NCBI GenBank assembly: GCA_017640505.1
Contig: JAEPQO010000003.1
Coordinates: forward strand, 1-64,000
Origin: Rhodospirillales bacterium
GTDB lineage: Bacteria; Pseudomonadota; Alphaproteobacteria; Rhodospirillales; Casp-alpha2
Direction of reading: 5' to 3'
Length of the DNA: 64,000 nt
In this document: positions 6,877 to 26,738 of the stretch, piece after piece
How positions within the stretch are numbered: position 1 is the first letter of the stretch
Layout of the letters: the number at the start of each line of letters is the position of its first letter
Notes under the pieces: model-generated
Databases searched by the model: none
Told to the model about the DNA's origin: nothing
Seen by the model: only the letters and a program-made list of their open reading frames with translations
Program-made: the position numbers and the translations under genes

Positions 6877-8325
6877 ATGAATGCGCTTCATACCATTTTG
6901 CTCGTGACCAATAACGCCAAAATACATGATTGCGTAACAGCGTCCATTCGCGATGACCCACATTATAGGCTAATTGTTTGCGAGCGTGAACAAGATGTGG
7001 CGAACCATTTGAACGTGGTGAATGTTCATCTGCTGATTTGTGACAAAGCTCTTATAGCAGACGACGTCAATAACACTTTGATGAATACTCGCATTTCCAA
7101 TCCACATGTGGCCCGGATGGTTATCGGTCATGTGGGCGAGGAAGAAGCCTGCGCGAGTTTGGCAAAGCGCGCAGCGGCTTATCTGTTCCTGATCTTTCCC
7201 TTCCCAGAGACATTGATCCAGATGGCAATCGAGCGATCATTAGAGATGTCTGAATTGTCCCGGCGGCATCGGGTATTGTCGCGTGAGCTCAAGATTTCCA
7301 TGGACGATGGCATTTTCGGTGAGGCTGCGCCGTTCTCGGTCAAAGGCGGATGGTCGCAGTTTGAGAAGTTGGTCTATGTGAGTGCCAAGATGGCCGAGCT
7401 TTGTGCGGAGGCCAAGCAGGCGGCGACAACCAATCTTCCCATATTGATCCATGGTGAGACCGGGACTGGCAAAGAACTGTTGGCGCGGGCGATACACTTC
7501 AACTCCGATCGCATGAACGCGCCAATGTTGGTTCAGAACTGTGGTGGGATCAACGAAGAGACGTTGCTTTCGGAAATTTTCGGTCATGTGCGAGGAGCAT
7601 TTACCGGCGCCATTTCCGATCGGCTTGGATTGTTCAGGGCAGCGGATGGCGGCACTGTCTTTCTTGATGAAATCTCCGAAATTTCGCCGGGGTTCCAGGT
7701 CAGCTTGTTGCGGTTCCTTCAAGAGGGAGAGGTCAAACCTCTTGGCTCCGACGAAATGGGGCATTCCGATGTGCGGATTATCGCCGCCAGCAATCGGCCC
7801 CTGGATAAGATGGTCGAGAAGGGGGAGTTCCGCCGCGACCTTTATTACAGATTAAAAGGGTTTGAGCTGGAAATTCAGCCGCTTCGAGCGAGGCCAGAGG
7901 ATATTCCCGTGCTTGCCCAATTTTTTGTCGAAAAGTATGCAGGTGTGGTCGGCAATCGCGTCGTTGGCATCACCCAGGAAGTTTTGGATCGCCTTTCAGC
8001 TTATCAGTTTCCAGGCAATGTGAGGGAATTGGAAACCGAAATCCGGCGCATGGTCGCAGTGACGGAGCAGGGTGGCTATATTGCTGTGCGTCACCTGACG
8101 CCGGCCATGGCAAGCGTCCAGCCCAAGGTTCCCGGCGCGCCTGGGGCAGGTTTTATGCCTGACGGCGGAACTTTGAAGGAAATGGTAGAGTCCCTGGAGA
8201 AGCAAATCGTCTCCCAAGCCCTGCAACGAAATCATTGGAACCAGAGTAAGGCGGCAGGTGAATTGGGCTTGTCCCGGGTCGGGCTCGCCAACAAGATCAA
8301 ACGCTATGAATTAAACGACCTATAA
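6877..8325 (+). CDS. hupR: Sigma-54-dependent hydrogenase transcriptional activator (HupR/HoxA type)
   Basis: 482 residues in the NtrC-like order: receiver (about 1-120), AAA+ domain (about 155-400) and Fis-type HTH (about 440-480, NQSKAAGELGLSRVGLANKI). The AAA+ domain is intact: Walker A GETGTGKE (193-200), GAFTGA sigma-54 contact loop (240-245), Walker B VFLDEI (261-266). The receiver is unusual. The acidic pair is replaced by TNN (11-13) and the conserved lysine position reads FPFP rather than KP, although a phospho-acceptor-like D56 remains. Related HupR/HoxA activators of hydrogenase genes are active when unphosphorylated, and this one may have lost switching altogether. It sits directly upstream of the hydrogenase control region, which carries a -24/-12 promoter. 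No hupT or hupUV partner is in the window. Confidence 0.88.
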   Translation: MNALHTILLVTNNAKIHDCVTASIRDDPHYRLIVCEREQDVANHLNVVNVHLLICDKALIADDVNNTLMNTRISNPHVARMVIGHVGEEEACASLAKRAAAYLFLIFPFPETLIQMAIERSLEMSELSRRHRVLSRELKISMDDGIFGEAAPFSVKGGWSQFEKLVYVSAKMAELCAEAKQAATTNLPILIHGETGTGKELLARAIHFNSDRMNAPMLVQNCGGINEETLLSEIFGHVRGAFTGAISDRLGLFRAADGGTVFLDEISEISPGFQVSLLRFLQEGEVKPLGSDEMGHSDVRIIAASNRPLDKMVEKGEFRRDLYYRLKGFELEIQPLRARPEDIPVLAQFFVEKYAGVVGNRVVGITQEVLDRLSAYQFPGNVRELETEIRRMVAVTEQGGYIAVRHLTPAMASVQPKVPGAPGAGFMPDGGTLKEMVESLEKQIVSQALQRNHWNQSKAAGELGLSRVGLANKIKRYELNDL

Positions 8326-8353
8326 TTTATGAGGCCATCGAGGGGGATGCGCC

Positions 8354-8572
8354 GTGTCAGATGATGATCGGGTAATCAAGTTTCCCCAATCACGCGTTCC
8401 TGGGACTAGTAAGTCGCGTCCAGTGAAAGACCTGGGGCGAACGCCCTTTGCAGAAATGATCGATCCGGAAGGCAAACGTGGCACAGGACATTGGTGCAGC
8501 CGTTGTCAGGGTGTTTGGTATGGTTTTCCGATCGAAACCCAATGCCCAGTTTGCGGCAATCGCCACGGCTGA
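8354..8572 (+). CDS. Small zinc-ribbon protein downstream of hupR
   Basis: 72 residues, GTG start at 8354 preceded by a good ribosome site (agggggatg), 28 bases after hupR. The N-terminal half is polar and probably disordered. The C-terminal half has two CxxC knuckles, HWCSRCQGVWYGFPIETQCPVCGNRHG, spaced like a rubredoxin or zinc-ribbon fold. No known family is recognised. Placement between the activator and the hydrogenase promoter suggests co-transcription with hupR and a regulatory or redox role, which is inference. It could instead be a rubredoxin-like accessory analogous to HupI/HupJ, but it lacks the standard rubredoxin spacing and sequence. Confidence 0.65.
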   Translation: MSDDDRVIKFPQSRVPGTSKSRPVKDLGRTPFAEMIDPEGKRGTGHWCSRCQGVWYGFPIETQCPVCGNRHG

Positions 8573-8588
8573 ATATTCATTCTCATTC

Positions 8589-25349: not shown

Positions 25350-26486
25350 AATGTTTTCAGAAACCTTAGTGGCGGCGGCAAGAATCGGATCTGCCGCGAG
25401 GTGCGCATAACGAGCAGTAGTTTGAACCTGAGTGTGCCCTAGAAGCTTACCAATCATGGGCAGGCTCATCCCTTGTGCGACGGCCTTGGAGGCAAATGAA
25501 TGTCGTAGGTCATGGATGCGGACGTCTTCAATGCCAGCCCGCTTGCGGATCCGTTGCCAGAATTTCTGGATCTCTTTGCGATTGGTTCCTGGGATTTTGC
25601 CGCAGATAACCCATGGGTTCTTTGGCTGCCGTTTGAGGTTTTTAAGGAGATCAAGGGCAGGGGGGCCGAGATGGACAACTCGTGCGCCGGTCTTTGAATC
25701 AGATAGTCGTAGGCAGCTGTTGTCGAAATCAACCTCTGTCCATTTGAGTGACATGATTTCGTTGAGGCGGCAGCCGGTAAAAATCAGGAGGCGGATAGCA
25801 GAAATAGCATAGATATCATCGACACCTATTTCTTCGGCTTCGTTTAGCACTGAACCGAGATCGCTCAGCTCTTTCTGGCTGAGGTAGCGCTCGCGTTTTT
25901 CTTCTGGGTATTTTTTGATGTGTAGCCGTGGATTGGAACCTTCAGGCCGCATTCCCCATATCTCTGCCATTGAGAACATTTTTGAGATCAGCTCAAGGTT
26001 CCGATTTGCCTGGTAAGGGATGTGGCGTGAATCATGATGAAATTTGGCGATGTCGGCCCGTGTTACATCGGAGACCTTCAGGCGTCCAAGGGCTGGCAAT
26101 ATGAAACGGCGAAGGTTGCGTCGGTATTCTGTGGCAGTGCCTGGCTTCAGACGGACAGAAATATGTTCTTGGTCGAAACGCTCTGCCAGCTCTTTCACCG
26201 TACAGGCTTTTCGGGCTCGGGAACGTTCGCCAGCAGGATCTTCTCCGTCCTTGACGGCTGCCAAAACCTTGAATGCCATGCGACGGGCTTTTTCGGGAGT
26301 GAGGACACCATGGGCTCCCAGGCTCATGCGTCTGTAACGATTGCCGATCCGGTATTGAACGATATAAGAACGACGGCCACTTGGTAAAATGCGAACGGCA
26401 AACCCAGCAAGGTCGTCATCGCAGATGATATAATCCTTATCTTGCGGCTTAGCAGACTCGACAAGGCGTTTGGTGATTTTAGGCAT
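25320..26486 (-). CDS. int: Tyrosine integrase, DUF4102/P4 type, of the genomic island
   Basis: 388 residues. The N-terminal 85 or so residues (CDDDLAGFAVRILPSGRRSYIVQYR...MSLGAHGVLTPEKARRMA) are the arm-binding DUF4102 domain. The core-binding domain spans about 95-180, and the catalytic domain contains R240 (FTGCRLNEI), H325 and R328 (HDLRHSF), H351 (LGHTQ) and Y360 (ARYAH), the complete tyrosine recombinase set. P4-type integrases insert at tRNA 3' ends, and the 3' half of a tRNA gene lies about 200 bases upstream of its start. It is transcribed inward, away from the att site, as usual. The enzyme looks intact, so excision may still be possible. Confidence 0.93.
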   Translation of the reverse strand: MPKITKRLVESAKPQDKDYIICDDDLAGFAVRILPSGRRSYIVQYRIGNRYRRMSLGAHGVLTPEKARRMAFKVLAAVKDGEDPAGERSRARKACTVKELAERFDQEHISVRLKPGTATEYRRNLRRFILPALGRLKVSDVTRADIAKFHHDSRHIPYQANRNLELISKMFSMAEIWGMRPEGSNPRLHIKKYPEEKRERYLSQKELSDLGSVLNEAEEIGVDDIYAISAIRLLIFTGCRLNEIMSLKWTEVDFDNSCLRLSDSKTGARVVHLGPPALDLLKNLKRQPKNPWVICGKIPGTNRKEIQKFWQRIRKRAGIEDVRIHDLRHSFASKAVAQGMSLPMIGKLLGHTQVQTTARYAHLAADPILAAATKVSENISGLMHKDTT

Positions 26487-26691
26487 ATGGCACCTCTTTG
26501 CGGCTGATTAACTCTCGATGATCGCTGCGCTGCTCTTAATCCCTGGAATCATAGTGGAATCATGAGGGCTGGTTTCGGCGAGCAACCGATCGAATGACAG
26601 CGTAAAGTGATTTCTAAAATAGTCCAGTAATATCAACTGGTTAGAGTGTTTCTGCGGAATTTTTAGAAATGCTGAGAAATGACCATATCAC

Positions 26692-26738
26692 GGCTCATAA
26701 CCTGAAGGTCGCAGGTTCAAATCCTGCCCCCGCAACCA
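26692..26738 (+). other. attR: 3' half of initiator tRNA-fMet gene (integration site)
   Basis: The 47 bases include the anticodon loop CTCATAA (anticodon CAT), the 3' side of the anticodon stem, the variable loop, a perfect T-arm (gcagg TTCAAAT cctgc), the acceptor 3' strand ccccgca and encoded ACCA. The terminal A of the acceptor, unpaired with C1 in initiators, and the overall sequence identify tRNA-fMet. No 5' half lies upstream: the five bases before the loop (cacgg) cannot pair with the 3' stem (cctga), and there is no D-arm. This is the duplicated tRNA end left by an integrase. The intact gene and the matching att copy should lie at the other end of the island, left of this window. Confidence 0.82.

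Follow-up and report, generated by a model that had tools for sequence, protein, structure and literature searches.

High-affinity hydrogenases are patchily distributed, and a hydrogenase gene block lying next to an integrase and half a tRNA gene raises the question of what carried it there. The window, the whole 64,000-nt stretch of DNA analysed here, holds such a block, which an earlier note had read as a genomic island inserted at tRNA-fMet. Comparison with a second copy in UBA1479, a genome of another genus in the same family, leads us to conclude that the huc block is very probably carried as cargo by a lambda-type, temperate tailed phage with tRNA-fMet as its integration site. The matter reaches beyond one genome, as atmospheric H2 is consumed by aerobic bacteria at global scale (PMC10017518).

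The huc cluster comprises 19 genes, and judged by its gene content the block is complete, with hucSL, a protease, a NifU-Rieske carrier, HypA-F and a sigma-54 activator (Table 1). The activator, structural genes, carriers and six hyp genes lie where the earlier note had placed them, and its description of the cluster as self-sufficient holds. The nickel permease is a weaker assignment, made from an HX4DH sequence, which we take to be a nickel permease motif, and a 49% match to a gene of the plasmid-borne huc cluster of Sphingopyxis alaskensis. In the latter cluster, an annotated NHL protein at the same place is 65% identical to the NHL-repeat-like protein found here. HucL and HypD each give one match per host genome, both in the window's genome and in UBA1479. 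The candidate promoter is weak taken alone, because seven plus-strand matches at two mismatches occur in 21 kb. Homologues of the acetyltransferase-like protein (28-69% identity) occur in 4 of 80 related viral loci, none there adjoining an integrase.

Table 1. Features of the element in the window, from the contig end to the host junction
Feature	Position	Strand	Basis or remark
Phage early region, inverted relative to UBA1479 prophage	1..5866	-	
AbiEi/AbiEii-like toxin-antitoxin pair, phage early region	1814..3561	+	Inside 1216-5869
IS-like remnant, DDE transposase split over frames	5867..6690	+	Right end approximate
Sigma-54 dependent activator	6877..8325	+	Sigma54_activat 208 bits, HTH_8
Candidate -24/-12 sigma-54 promoter, 5' of hucS	8712..8727	+	Script scan
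HucS, hydrogenase small subunit	8825..9787	+	Family and solved-structure matches
HucL, hydrogenase large subunit	9813..11414	+	Both CxxC metal motifs, C-terminal extension
Small cysteine-containing protein	11553..11942	+	Conserved in huc clusters
Second small cysteine-containing protein	11996..12331	+	Resembles 11553..11942 product (by eye)
Hydrogenase maturation protease	12328..12804	+	HycI / TIGR00072
Conserved cluster protein, function not assigned	12795..13160	+	
Conserved cluster protein	13205..14272	+	Repeat-like helical sequence (by eye)
Small hydrophobic protein, candidate membrane anchor	14342..14749	+	By eye
NifU-Rieske fusion, HucE-like electron carrier	14754..15716	+	Pfam
NHL-repeat-like protein	15719..16900	+	Sub-threshold NCBIfam match
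HypF	16882..19266	+	TIGR00143 790 bits
HypC	19257..19556	+	Family match
SIS/GmhA-like isomerase	19565..20269	+	Family match; SIS-domain gene at same place in plasmid cluster
HypD	20266..21447	+	Sole copy found in genome
HypE	21444..22523	+	Family match
HypA	22536..22913	+	Family match
HypB, His-rich stretch	22913..23827	+	Family match and translation
Probable nickel permease	23855..24598	+	HX4DH motif; family matches weak only
Acetyltransferase-like protein	24753..25349	+	PHROG 1758
Tyrosine integrase, Arm-DNA-bind_3, intact	25320..26486	-	Pfam
attR, 3' half of tRNA-fMet at host junction, 47 nt	26692..26738	+	

By homology and phylogeny, the enzyme is a group 2a [NiFe]-hydrogenase, HucS/HucL. 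Among solved structures, the best relative of HucL is Huc at 621.8 bits, the next distinct family reaching 201, and HucS likewise matches Huc best (522 bits, then 130). The entries in question (PDB 7utd, 7uur, 7uus and 8dqv) we take to be Huc of Mycobacterium smegmatis; this complex is the closest solved relative of both subunits, but no HucM was recognised in the present cluster, where a PDB comparison of one small ORF gave no useful match. Residues C64, C67, C511, C514 and H517 of HucL are invariant in 17 of 17 aligned sequences. With the NiFe-site cysteine pairs present and a maturation protease gene adjoining, C-terminal processing is predicted. No signal peptide was seen by eye in HucS. 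In a tree of 76 rows, built on a small reference set of our own and carrying long-branch warnings for the outgroups and Runella, HucL falls inside a clade of Mycobacterium, Thermus, Sulfobacillus and cyanobacteria (98/95), within group 2a as had been proposed. The accompanying actinobacterial comparison finds no support: the nearest kin are other alphaproteobacteria, at 90% HucL identity, then cyanobacterial and Acidithiobacillus types at 75-77%, and Mycobacterium (an M. intracellulare row) shares about 55%. The group 2a operon hallmarks described in PMC7784904, namely a Rieske protein, an NHL protein and maturation genes, are all present. Group 1h, considered on account of the gmhA-like and NHL genes, was rejected, as HofG (5aa5) reaches 132.6 bits where Huc has 621.8.

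The evidence on the carrier comes from UBA1479, in which window positions 5867-26738 recur with 2 mismatches in 20,872 bp. Across the rpoB region, the window's genome is about 80% identical to two genomes of that other genus, against the near-identity of the huc unit. The unit common to the two genera spans 5867-26738, where the earlier note had 6877-26738. In UBA1479, the recurring unit lies at the right-hand end of an uninterrupted prophage of 61 kb, which runs in the order repressor, recombination genes, terminase, portal, capsid, tail, lysis, huc, integrase and attR. Its structural genes encode terminase, portal, capsid, tail tube, tape measure and tail tip; repressor, exonuclease, resolvase, small terminase and minor tail genes are also present, together with a single-stranded DNA annealing protein and a tail-fibre-like protein. 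The lysis genes were recognised via homologues in a viral contig (L213, 89% identical DNA), where a holin domain lies above cut-off and an M15 peptidase (endolysin) match below threshold. A further viral contig, L212, is 100% identical to the tail-lysis end over 5973 bp. No relaxase or type IV secretion genes were found in the subset of UBA1479 ORFs that was scanned. The GC content of the cargo, 55.4%, compares with 55.1% in the phage backbone and 62 and 65% in the host flanks, and positions 1-26738 of the window have 54.7% against 61.8% in the remainder; GC3 does not separate the cargo, since lower values occur in 14 of 64 other huc loci. Its structural, lysis and repressor genes mark the element as a prophage, and the reading as a genomic island is not supported.

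Both huc copies end exactly at host fMet junctions, and the host flanks differ. On the right, identity between the genera stops at attR, at 26738, and the 47-nt sequence also lies inside intact fMet genes of sister genomes; the integrase, one residue different from the UBA1479 copy, is intact and the tRNA half has the length that had been described. The second att copy sought by the earlier note appears at the left end of the UBA1479 prophage; in this metagenome-assembled sequence it amounts to no more than the final 23 nt of the tRNA, lying at contig base 1, with the full half at 61120-61167. The site is unoccupied in three sister genomes (G036, G037 and G039) and probably in a fourth (G003), and HucL was not found in the seven other genomes of the genus, two of them only 58-65% complete. 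Site-specific integration at tRNA-fMet is supported, and none of the outcomes that would have refuted the earlier note was observed.

The left part of the window is arranged differently. The right bound of the element stands as previously drawn, and its left end, formerly placed outside the window, needs correction: the element reaches base 1, which is the contig end, and phage genes lie there. Positions 1-1217 match UBA1479 at 91%, and 1216-5869 are the reverse of prophage positions 2968-7621 at 100%, with a PHROG 37634 match at 4434-5606. The left edge of the IS-like remnant (5867; DDE_Tnp_1, 52 bits on piece 6176-6718) is the rearrangement junction, so that huc is joined here to inverted phage early genes. 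The genome's contig C6 starts in this early region, and C6:1-77, a 77-mer, is common to the ends of contigs C8 and C11; the left neighbour of the prophage is ambiguous between these two contigs. No high-identity copies of the late genes of this phage turned up in the window's genome, where relatives of 79-93% lie on C8. It is the missing late genes, and the IS remnant at the left edge of the cargo, that favour a reading in which huc hopped into a prophage no longer infectious and copies spread by conjugation, transformation or another phage. We regard this reading, which overlaps with that of phage cargo, as unlikely: the exact fMet ends within different flanks are integrase work, and the UBA1479 copy, whose tail-lysis end is matched perfectly by L212 over 5973 bp, retains its structural and lysis genes.

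Related prophages provide a further line of evidence. Homology of the UBA1479 prophage to viral contigs L213, L214 and L216 ends at 40081-40099, the end of the last lysis gene, and related prophages carry other genes 3' of the tail and lysis genes, with defence genes in 4 of 8 examined. A second prophage in the window's own genome has BREX at the cargo place, and runs from a related integrase at the same place through other cargo to the same lysis and tail genes, ordered as in UBA1479; because it shares this layout, the integrase belongs to the phage layout. That argues against two separate elements sharing the site, in which a hydrogenase island bringing an integrase of its own would stand in tandem beside an unrelated prophage that never carries huc. 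tRNA-fMet is indeed used more than once, as the window's genome has a further fMet half that comes with a separate integrase, but a regex scan allowing up to 6 mismatches found no att copy between the phage genes and huc in UBA1479, and the sole integrase among its scanned ORFs lies at the far end. We consider such a tandem highly improbable. Least credible of all is a chimeric phage-huc joint or host flank from assembly or binning. In its favour, the lysis-to-huc joint is seen whole in UBA1479 only, itself a metagenome assembly, and three contigs of the window's genome share the 77-mer; against it, huc-integrase-attR stands in two separate genome records with flanks like their own genera. The case for phage cargo is made by the contiguous prophage with huc between lysis genes and integrase, the near-identity across two genera with each copy ending at tRNA-fMet, and the other cargo held at the same place by related prophages. 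Among 67 huc loci, only that of UBA1479 (L037) has genes of this phage in flanks of up to 10 kb, and the huc-carrying prophages among those seen number two, in the window's genome and in UBA1479.

The closest known system is the plasmid cluster of S. alaskensis RB2256 (NC_008036), which matches 19 of 19 cluster genes (HucL 86%, HucS 91%) in the same order except for the permease homologue, there located between hypE and hypA. It is mobile too, although carried by a mobilizable plasmid of 28.5 kb instead of a phage, and its host strain consumes H2 to below atmospheric concentrations (PMC10305171). Defence hotspots in P2-like phages and P4-like satellites (PMC9122126) resemble the present locus as variable accessory slots in temperate phage, but presumably belong to a different phage family, and the slot here also takes a 19-kb metabolic operon. 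Phages of the Rhodobacter capsulatus RcKemmy/RcDormio type give the best INPHARED matches to the capsid-protease fusion, at about 41%, but have genomes of 37-42 kb. INPHARED holds no close huc (4 records, all below 39% identity and including a Salmonella record of 691 kb). Pattern scans of viral_contigs with a few exact peptides, which can miss relatives, found no huc genes; the corresponding integrase scan was empty too, though the viral locus L243 has a 63% identical integrase. Viral contigs from landfills carry a hydrogenase-related gene, frhB, for the F420-hydrogenase beta subunit (PMC12607003), but this is a single accessory subunit and not a catalytic [NiFe] enzyme accompanied by its maturation genes. 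Searches of the open-licence PMC literature brought up no account of a [NiFe]-hydrogenase module on a phage. Passages of PMC12783922, PMC5900883, PMC9448743, PMC8813620 and PMC10547907 report hydrogenases in hosts, and the viral auxiliary genes named in passages of PMC9894754 include no hydrogenase. Group 2a enzymes in Alphaproteobacteria, also plasmid-borne, have already been published (PMC7784904, PMC10305171). The enzyme, operon and plasmid spread are therefore known, and the phage vector appears to be new.

We envision that infection of a new host would deliver the huc cluster, whose sigma-54 activator would turn on hucSL. Hyp proteins and the protease would mature the enzyme with nickel imported by the permease, and HucSL would oxidise H2 down to sub-atmospheric levels, passing electrons through Fe-S/Rieske proteins to respiratory quinones. 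For the lysogen, where a search turned up no further hydrogenase of this kind, the cluster would add a source of energy. The prophage of the window's genome has since been rearranged at the IS edge. We further propose, with some confidence but less than in the cargo itself, that the temperate phage acts as a vector of lithotrophy: virions would package a 19-kb high-affinity hydrogenase module, in a slot used by sister phages for defence systems, and lysogenic conversion would let hosts of different genera live partly on atmospheric H2. If so, H2 uptake should be lost from a host cured of the prophage, and virions should contain huc DNA. Lysogenic conversion would then go beyond individual auxiliary genes and cover a whole complex that conserves energy, and a phage bearing an entire enzyme with its maturation set and regulator would offer a direct route to the patchy distribution of these hydrogenases.

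We interpret the group 2a [NiFe]-hydrogenase (huc) block as the cargo of a temperate phage that integrates at tRNA-fMet. All genes listed in the earlier note are present and uninterrupted, and the 47-nt 3' half of tRNA-fMet that it placed at the right boundary is confirmed at 26692-26738, as the right attachment site (attR); ARAGORN detects no whole tRNA in the window. The window covers the first 64 kb of contig C6, which is 545,891 bp long and belongs to an assembly (G000) of 12 contigs and 3.95 Mb that is 98.55% complete. GC content is 54.7% over window positions 1-26738 versus 61.8% for the remainder of the window, and the integrase combines Phage_integrase, Arm-DNA-bind_3 and SAM-like domains.

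The identity of the enzyme is clear from both subunits. HucL scores 621.8 bits across 510 residues against the Huc large subunit, the next distinct hydrogenase reaching 201 bits, and HucS scores 522 bits, the next reaching 130. In a 76-row large-subunit tree with self-assembled references (64 of 66 genome loci, 7 plasmid loci and 4 loci from family genomes; partial loci L093 and L101 left out), HucL groups inside the group 2a clade, as the earlier note had proposed (support 98/95; long-branch warning for outgroup rows and Runella). There it falls within an alphaproteobacterial set of 24 rows (support 100/100), its most similar row being 90% identical. Seventeen aligned sequences all share residues C64, C67, C511, C514 and H517. 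Two neighbouring small proteins encoded at 11553-12331, mutually similar, with a common cysteine pattern and kept across huc clusters, may be Fe-S or maturation proteins.

When 48 genomes from the GTDB family were searched with HucL, six gave matches and two of the 48 had close copies: the window's genome and G035 (Rhodospirillaceae bacterium UBA1479), from a different genus. Window 5867-26756 aligns without gaps to positions 40296-61185 of G035 contig C8 (DCRZ01000001.1), with seven mismatches, five of which lie at 26740-26750, past the tRNA half and in host DNA. The element proper (20,872 bp) carries two, at 6834 upstream of the activator and at 26029, a Ser/Leu difference in the integrase; no difference was seen in the 11 huc, hyp and regulator proteins compared. 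The G035 element spans about 61.1 kb without a break; its left end, at contig base 1, is the final 23 nt of tRNA-fMet, its right end is a tRNA half at 61120-61167, and its genes are listed in the Table. Homologues of its lysis genes in viral contig L213 (89% identical DNA) include a three-helix holin above its cut-off and an M15-type peptidase match below its own (20.4 versus 25 bits).

Table. Features of the G035 prophage in rightward order (from the ORFs scanned, a part of all ORFs) and ORF scan of the cargo slot in related elements
Element	Position	Features	Remark
G035 prophage	left end, first	U49-type peptidase, M78 peptidase, repressor-like gene	
G035 prophage	next after repressor-like gene	AbiE pair	100% identical to window's pair
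G035 prophage	after AbiE pair	Sak4-like annealing protein, helicase, Cas4-type exonuclease, AAA_25 protein, RuvC-like resolvase, ParB-methylase	
G035 prophage	after ParB-methylase	small and large terminase, portal, capsid, tail tube, tape measure, minor tail proteins, tail tip	
G035 prophage	39254-40100	lysis genes	read from sequence; last lysis gene stops at 40100
G035 prophage	about 40.3-59.0 kb, after lysis genes	IS remnant and huc	
G035 prophage	right end, after huc	acetyltransferase-like gene, then integrase	
G000 C8 (prophage 2)	slot	BREX	defence
L214, L227	slot	type I restriction	defence
L291	slot	Hma	defence
G029	slot	SNF2 helicase, sub-threshold methylase	
L243	slot	RepB and recombinase, then 63% identical integrase	
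G144	slot	nothing clear	

The window's genome shows REARRANGEMENT: window 1216-5869 is the reverse of G035 2968-7621 (100%), and window 1-1217 is the reverse of G035 9748-10964 (91%). The IS remnant's left border coincides with the junction at 5867, which puts the phage early region, inverted, next to huc. A search covering the whole stretch 1-40000 of the UBA1479 phage detected none of its late genes at high identity in G000; the window's copy is therefore probably a rearranged prophage, perhaps defective or hybrid. Contig C11 of the same genome starts with 5S rRNA and an intact tRNA-fMet, the sole intact one among four fMet matches in the genome, and further in carries capsid, portal and terminase genes of another phage type. 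C11 and C8 share the same 77-mer at their ends, and either could be joined to C6. Also on C11, downstream of the 5S rRNA and intact tRNA-fMet, the portal and terminase genes of this third phage type have a DUF1924 protein and a histidine-kinase-like ORF between them (L005, 5049-8743).

Among eight genomes of the genus, HucL was detected only in that of the window; five of the eight have low contamination and reach at least 90% completeness. An intact tRNA by itself is no proof of an empty site, because the opposite end, attL, also carries one. Unoccupied tRNA-fMet sites, which the earlier note had proposed to seek in relatives lacking the block, are present in G036, G037 and G039. At four sites there (seven loci scanned), an intact tRNA is directly followed by sequence matching the G035 host flank past attR (86-89% over about 140 bp, 47 of them the tRNA half); the remainder of the 4.9-kb flank gives only short matches in these genomes. 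The site in G003 is probably empty too, as judged from a homologue of window ORF 33546-34856 (73% amino-acid identity) about 2.1 kb past its intact tRNA-fMet; the homologue of the window's attR-adjacent gene is located elsewhere in that genome. G005 has two intact fMet genes. A UBA1479 relative has an fMet half but no intact tRNA with it (L345, G040:C1:3143173-3143309), which suggests another element at the site. Divergence of the rpoB region is 9-11% inside the genus and about 20% against two members of the other genus (longest aligned piece); rpoB was not found in G035, and its genus is therefore an assigned label, not an rpoB-based one. Taken together, two mismatches in 20,872 bp, the unoccupied sites and the roughly 20% divergence of other genomes of that genus indicate a recent transfer of the element and its cargo across the genus boundary, through site-specific integration in one or both genera.

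Related phages carry other genes at the position of huc. Prophage 2, on contig C8 of the window's genome, has a second fMet half with an integrase region 65.9% identical and, inward from its lysis-gene end, 79-93% identity to the UBA1479 phage where alignable, with a gap across the head genes. Its integrase-lysis interval, the huc slot of the other phage, holds BREX PglX, BrxH, PglZ and BrxA with RepB/recombinase genes (C8 219963-270110; L006, L121, L122). In viral contigs L213, L214 and L216 (88-89% identity), homology ends at UBA1479 40081-40099. Defence genes follow the tail tip in four of the eight related prophages and viral contigs scanned, the slot of all elements but C8, L213, L214 and L216 being assigned from the order of ORFs past the tail tip. 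Viral contig L212 (IMGVR_UViG_3300025287_000136; 5973 bp) is 100% identical to the UBA1479 tail-lysis end and stops at 40100, where the cargo starts, as expected if the phage population varies in cargo. A few kb past the tail tip, G050 contig C28 (L329, 7170-10902) carries AMP-binding and LuxC-like acyl-CoA reductase genes, either cargo or host flank, and in G068 contig C24 a related prophage has a 4510-codon ORF past its tail-tip gene (L326, 68-13600). Tail-tip relatives occur in 35 of 297 genomes sampled from the order (E <=1e-100). Hydrogenase-cluster genes were absent from the 80 loci kept of 369 capsid-relative viral loci and from the 80 kept of 84 tail-tip-relative loci (flanks of at most 10 kb); the acetyltransferase-like ORF was matched in four of the capsid-relative 80.

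Composition agrees with this reading of huc as phage cargo: GC is 55.4% in the cargo versus 55.1% in the phage backbone, and GC3 is 0.61 for HucL, 0.56-0.63 for six phage genes and 0.72-0.78 for two host-flank genes. The match is only supportive, because 14 of 64 other huc loci have still lower GC3.

The enzymes of group 2a, with their operon and their spread on plasmids, are already known; HucL with 80-90% identity is encoded on 12 of the 36 plasmid records that gave a match. Group 2a is listed for 171 genera, Alphaproteobacteria among them (PMC7784904), and the enzyme's occurrence here is therefore not new in itself. Defence-gene cargo slots in temperate phages have likewise been described (PMC9122126); no example of a phage carrying an entire [NiFe]-hydrogenase module emerged from the open-licence PMC literature searched or from pattern scans of viral contigs, which can miss relatives.

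With a candidate sigma-54 promoter at 8712, the huc cluster may be under sigma-54 control, and electrons may be transferred via the Rieske protein. Each of the window's 19 hydrogenase-cluster genes is matched by a homologue on the S. alaskensis F plasmid. Gene order is shared except for the permease, whose homologue lies between hypE and hypA on that plasmid but elsewhere in the window cluster. The S. alaskensis strain expressed hucL and took up H2 to sub-atmospheric levels (PMC10305171). No second HucL-like or HypD gene was found in either host genome (G000, G035). An H2-oxidising function of the window cluster is therefore well supported by analogy.
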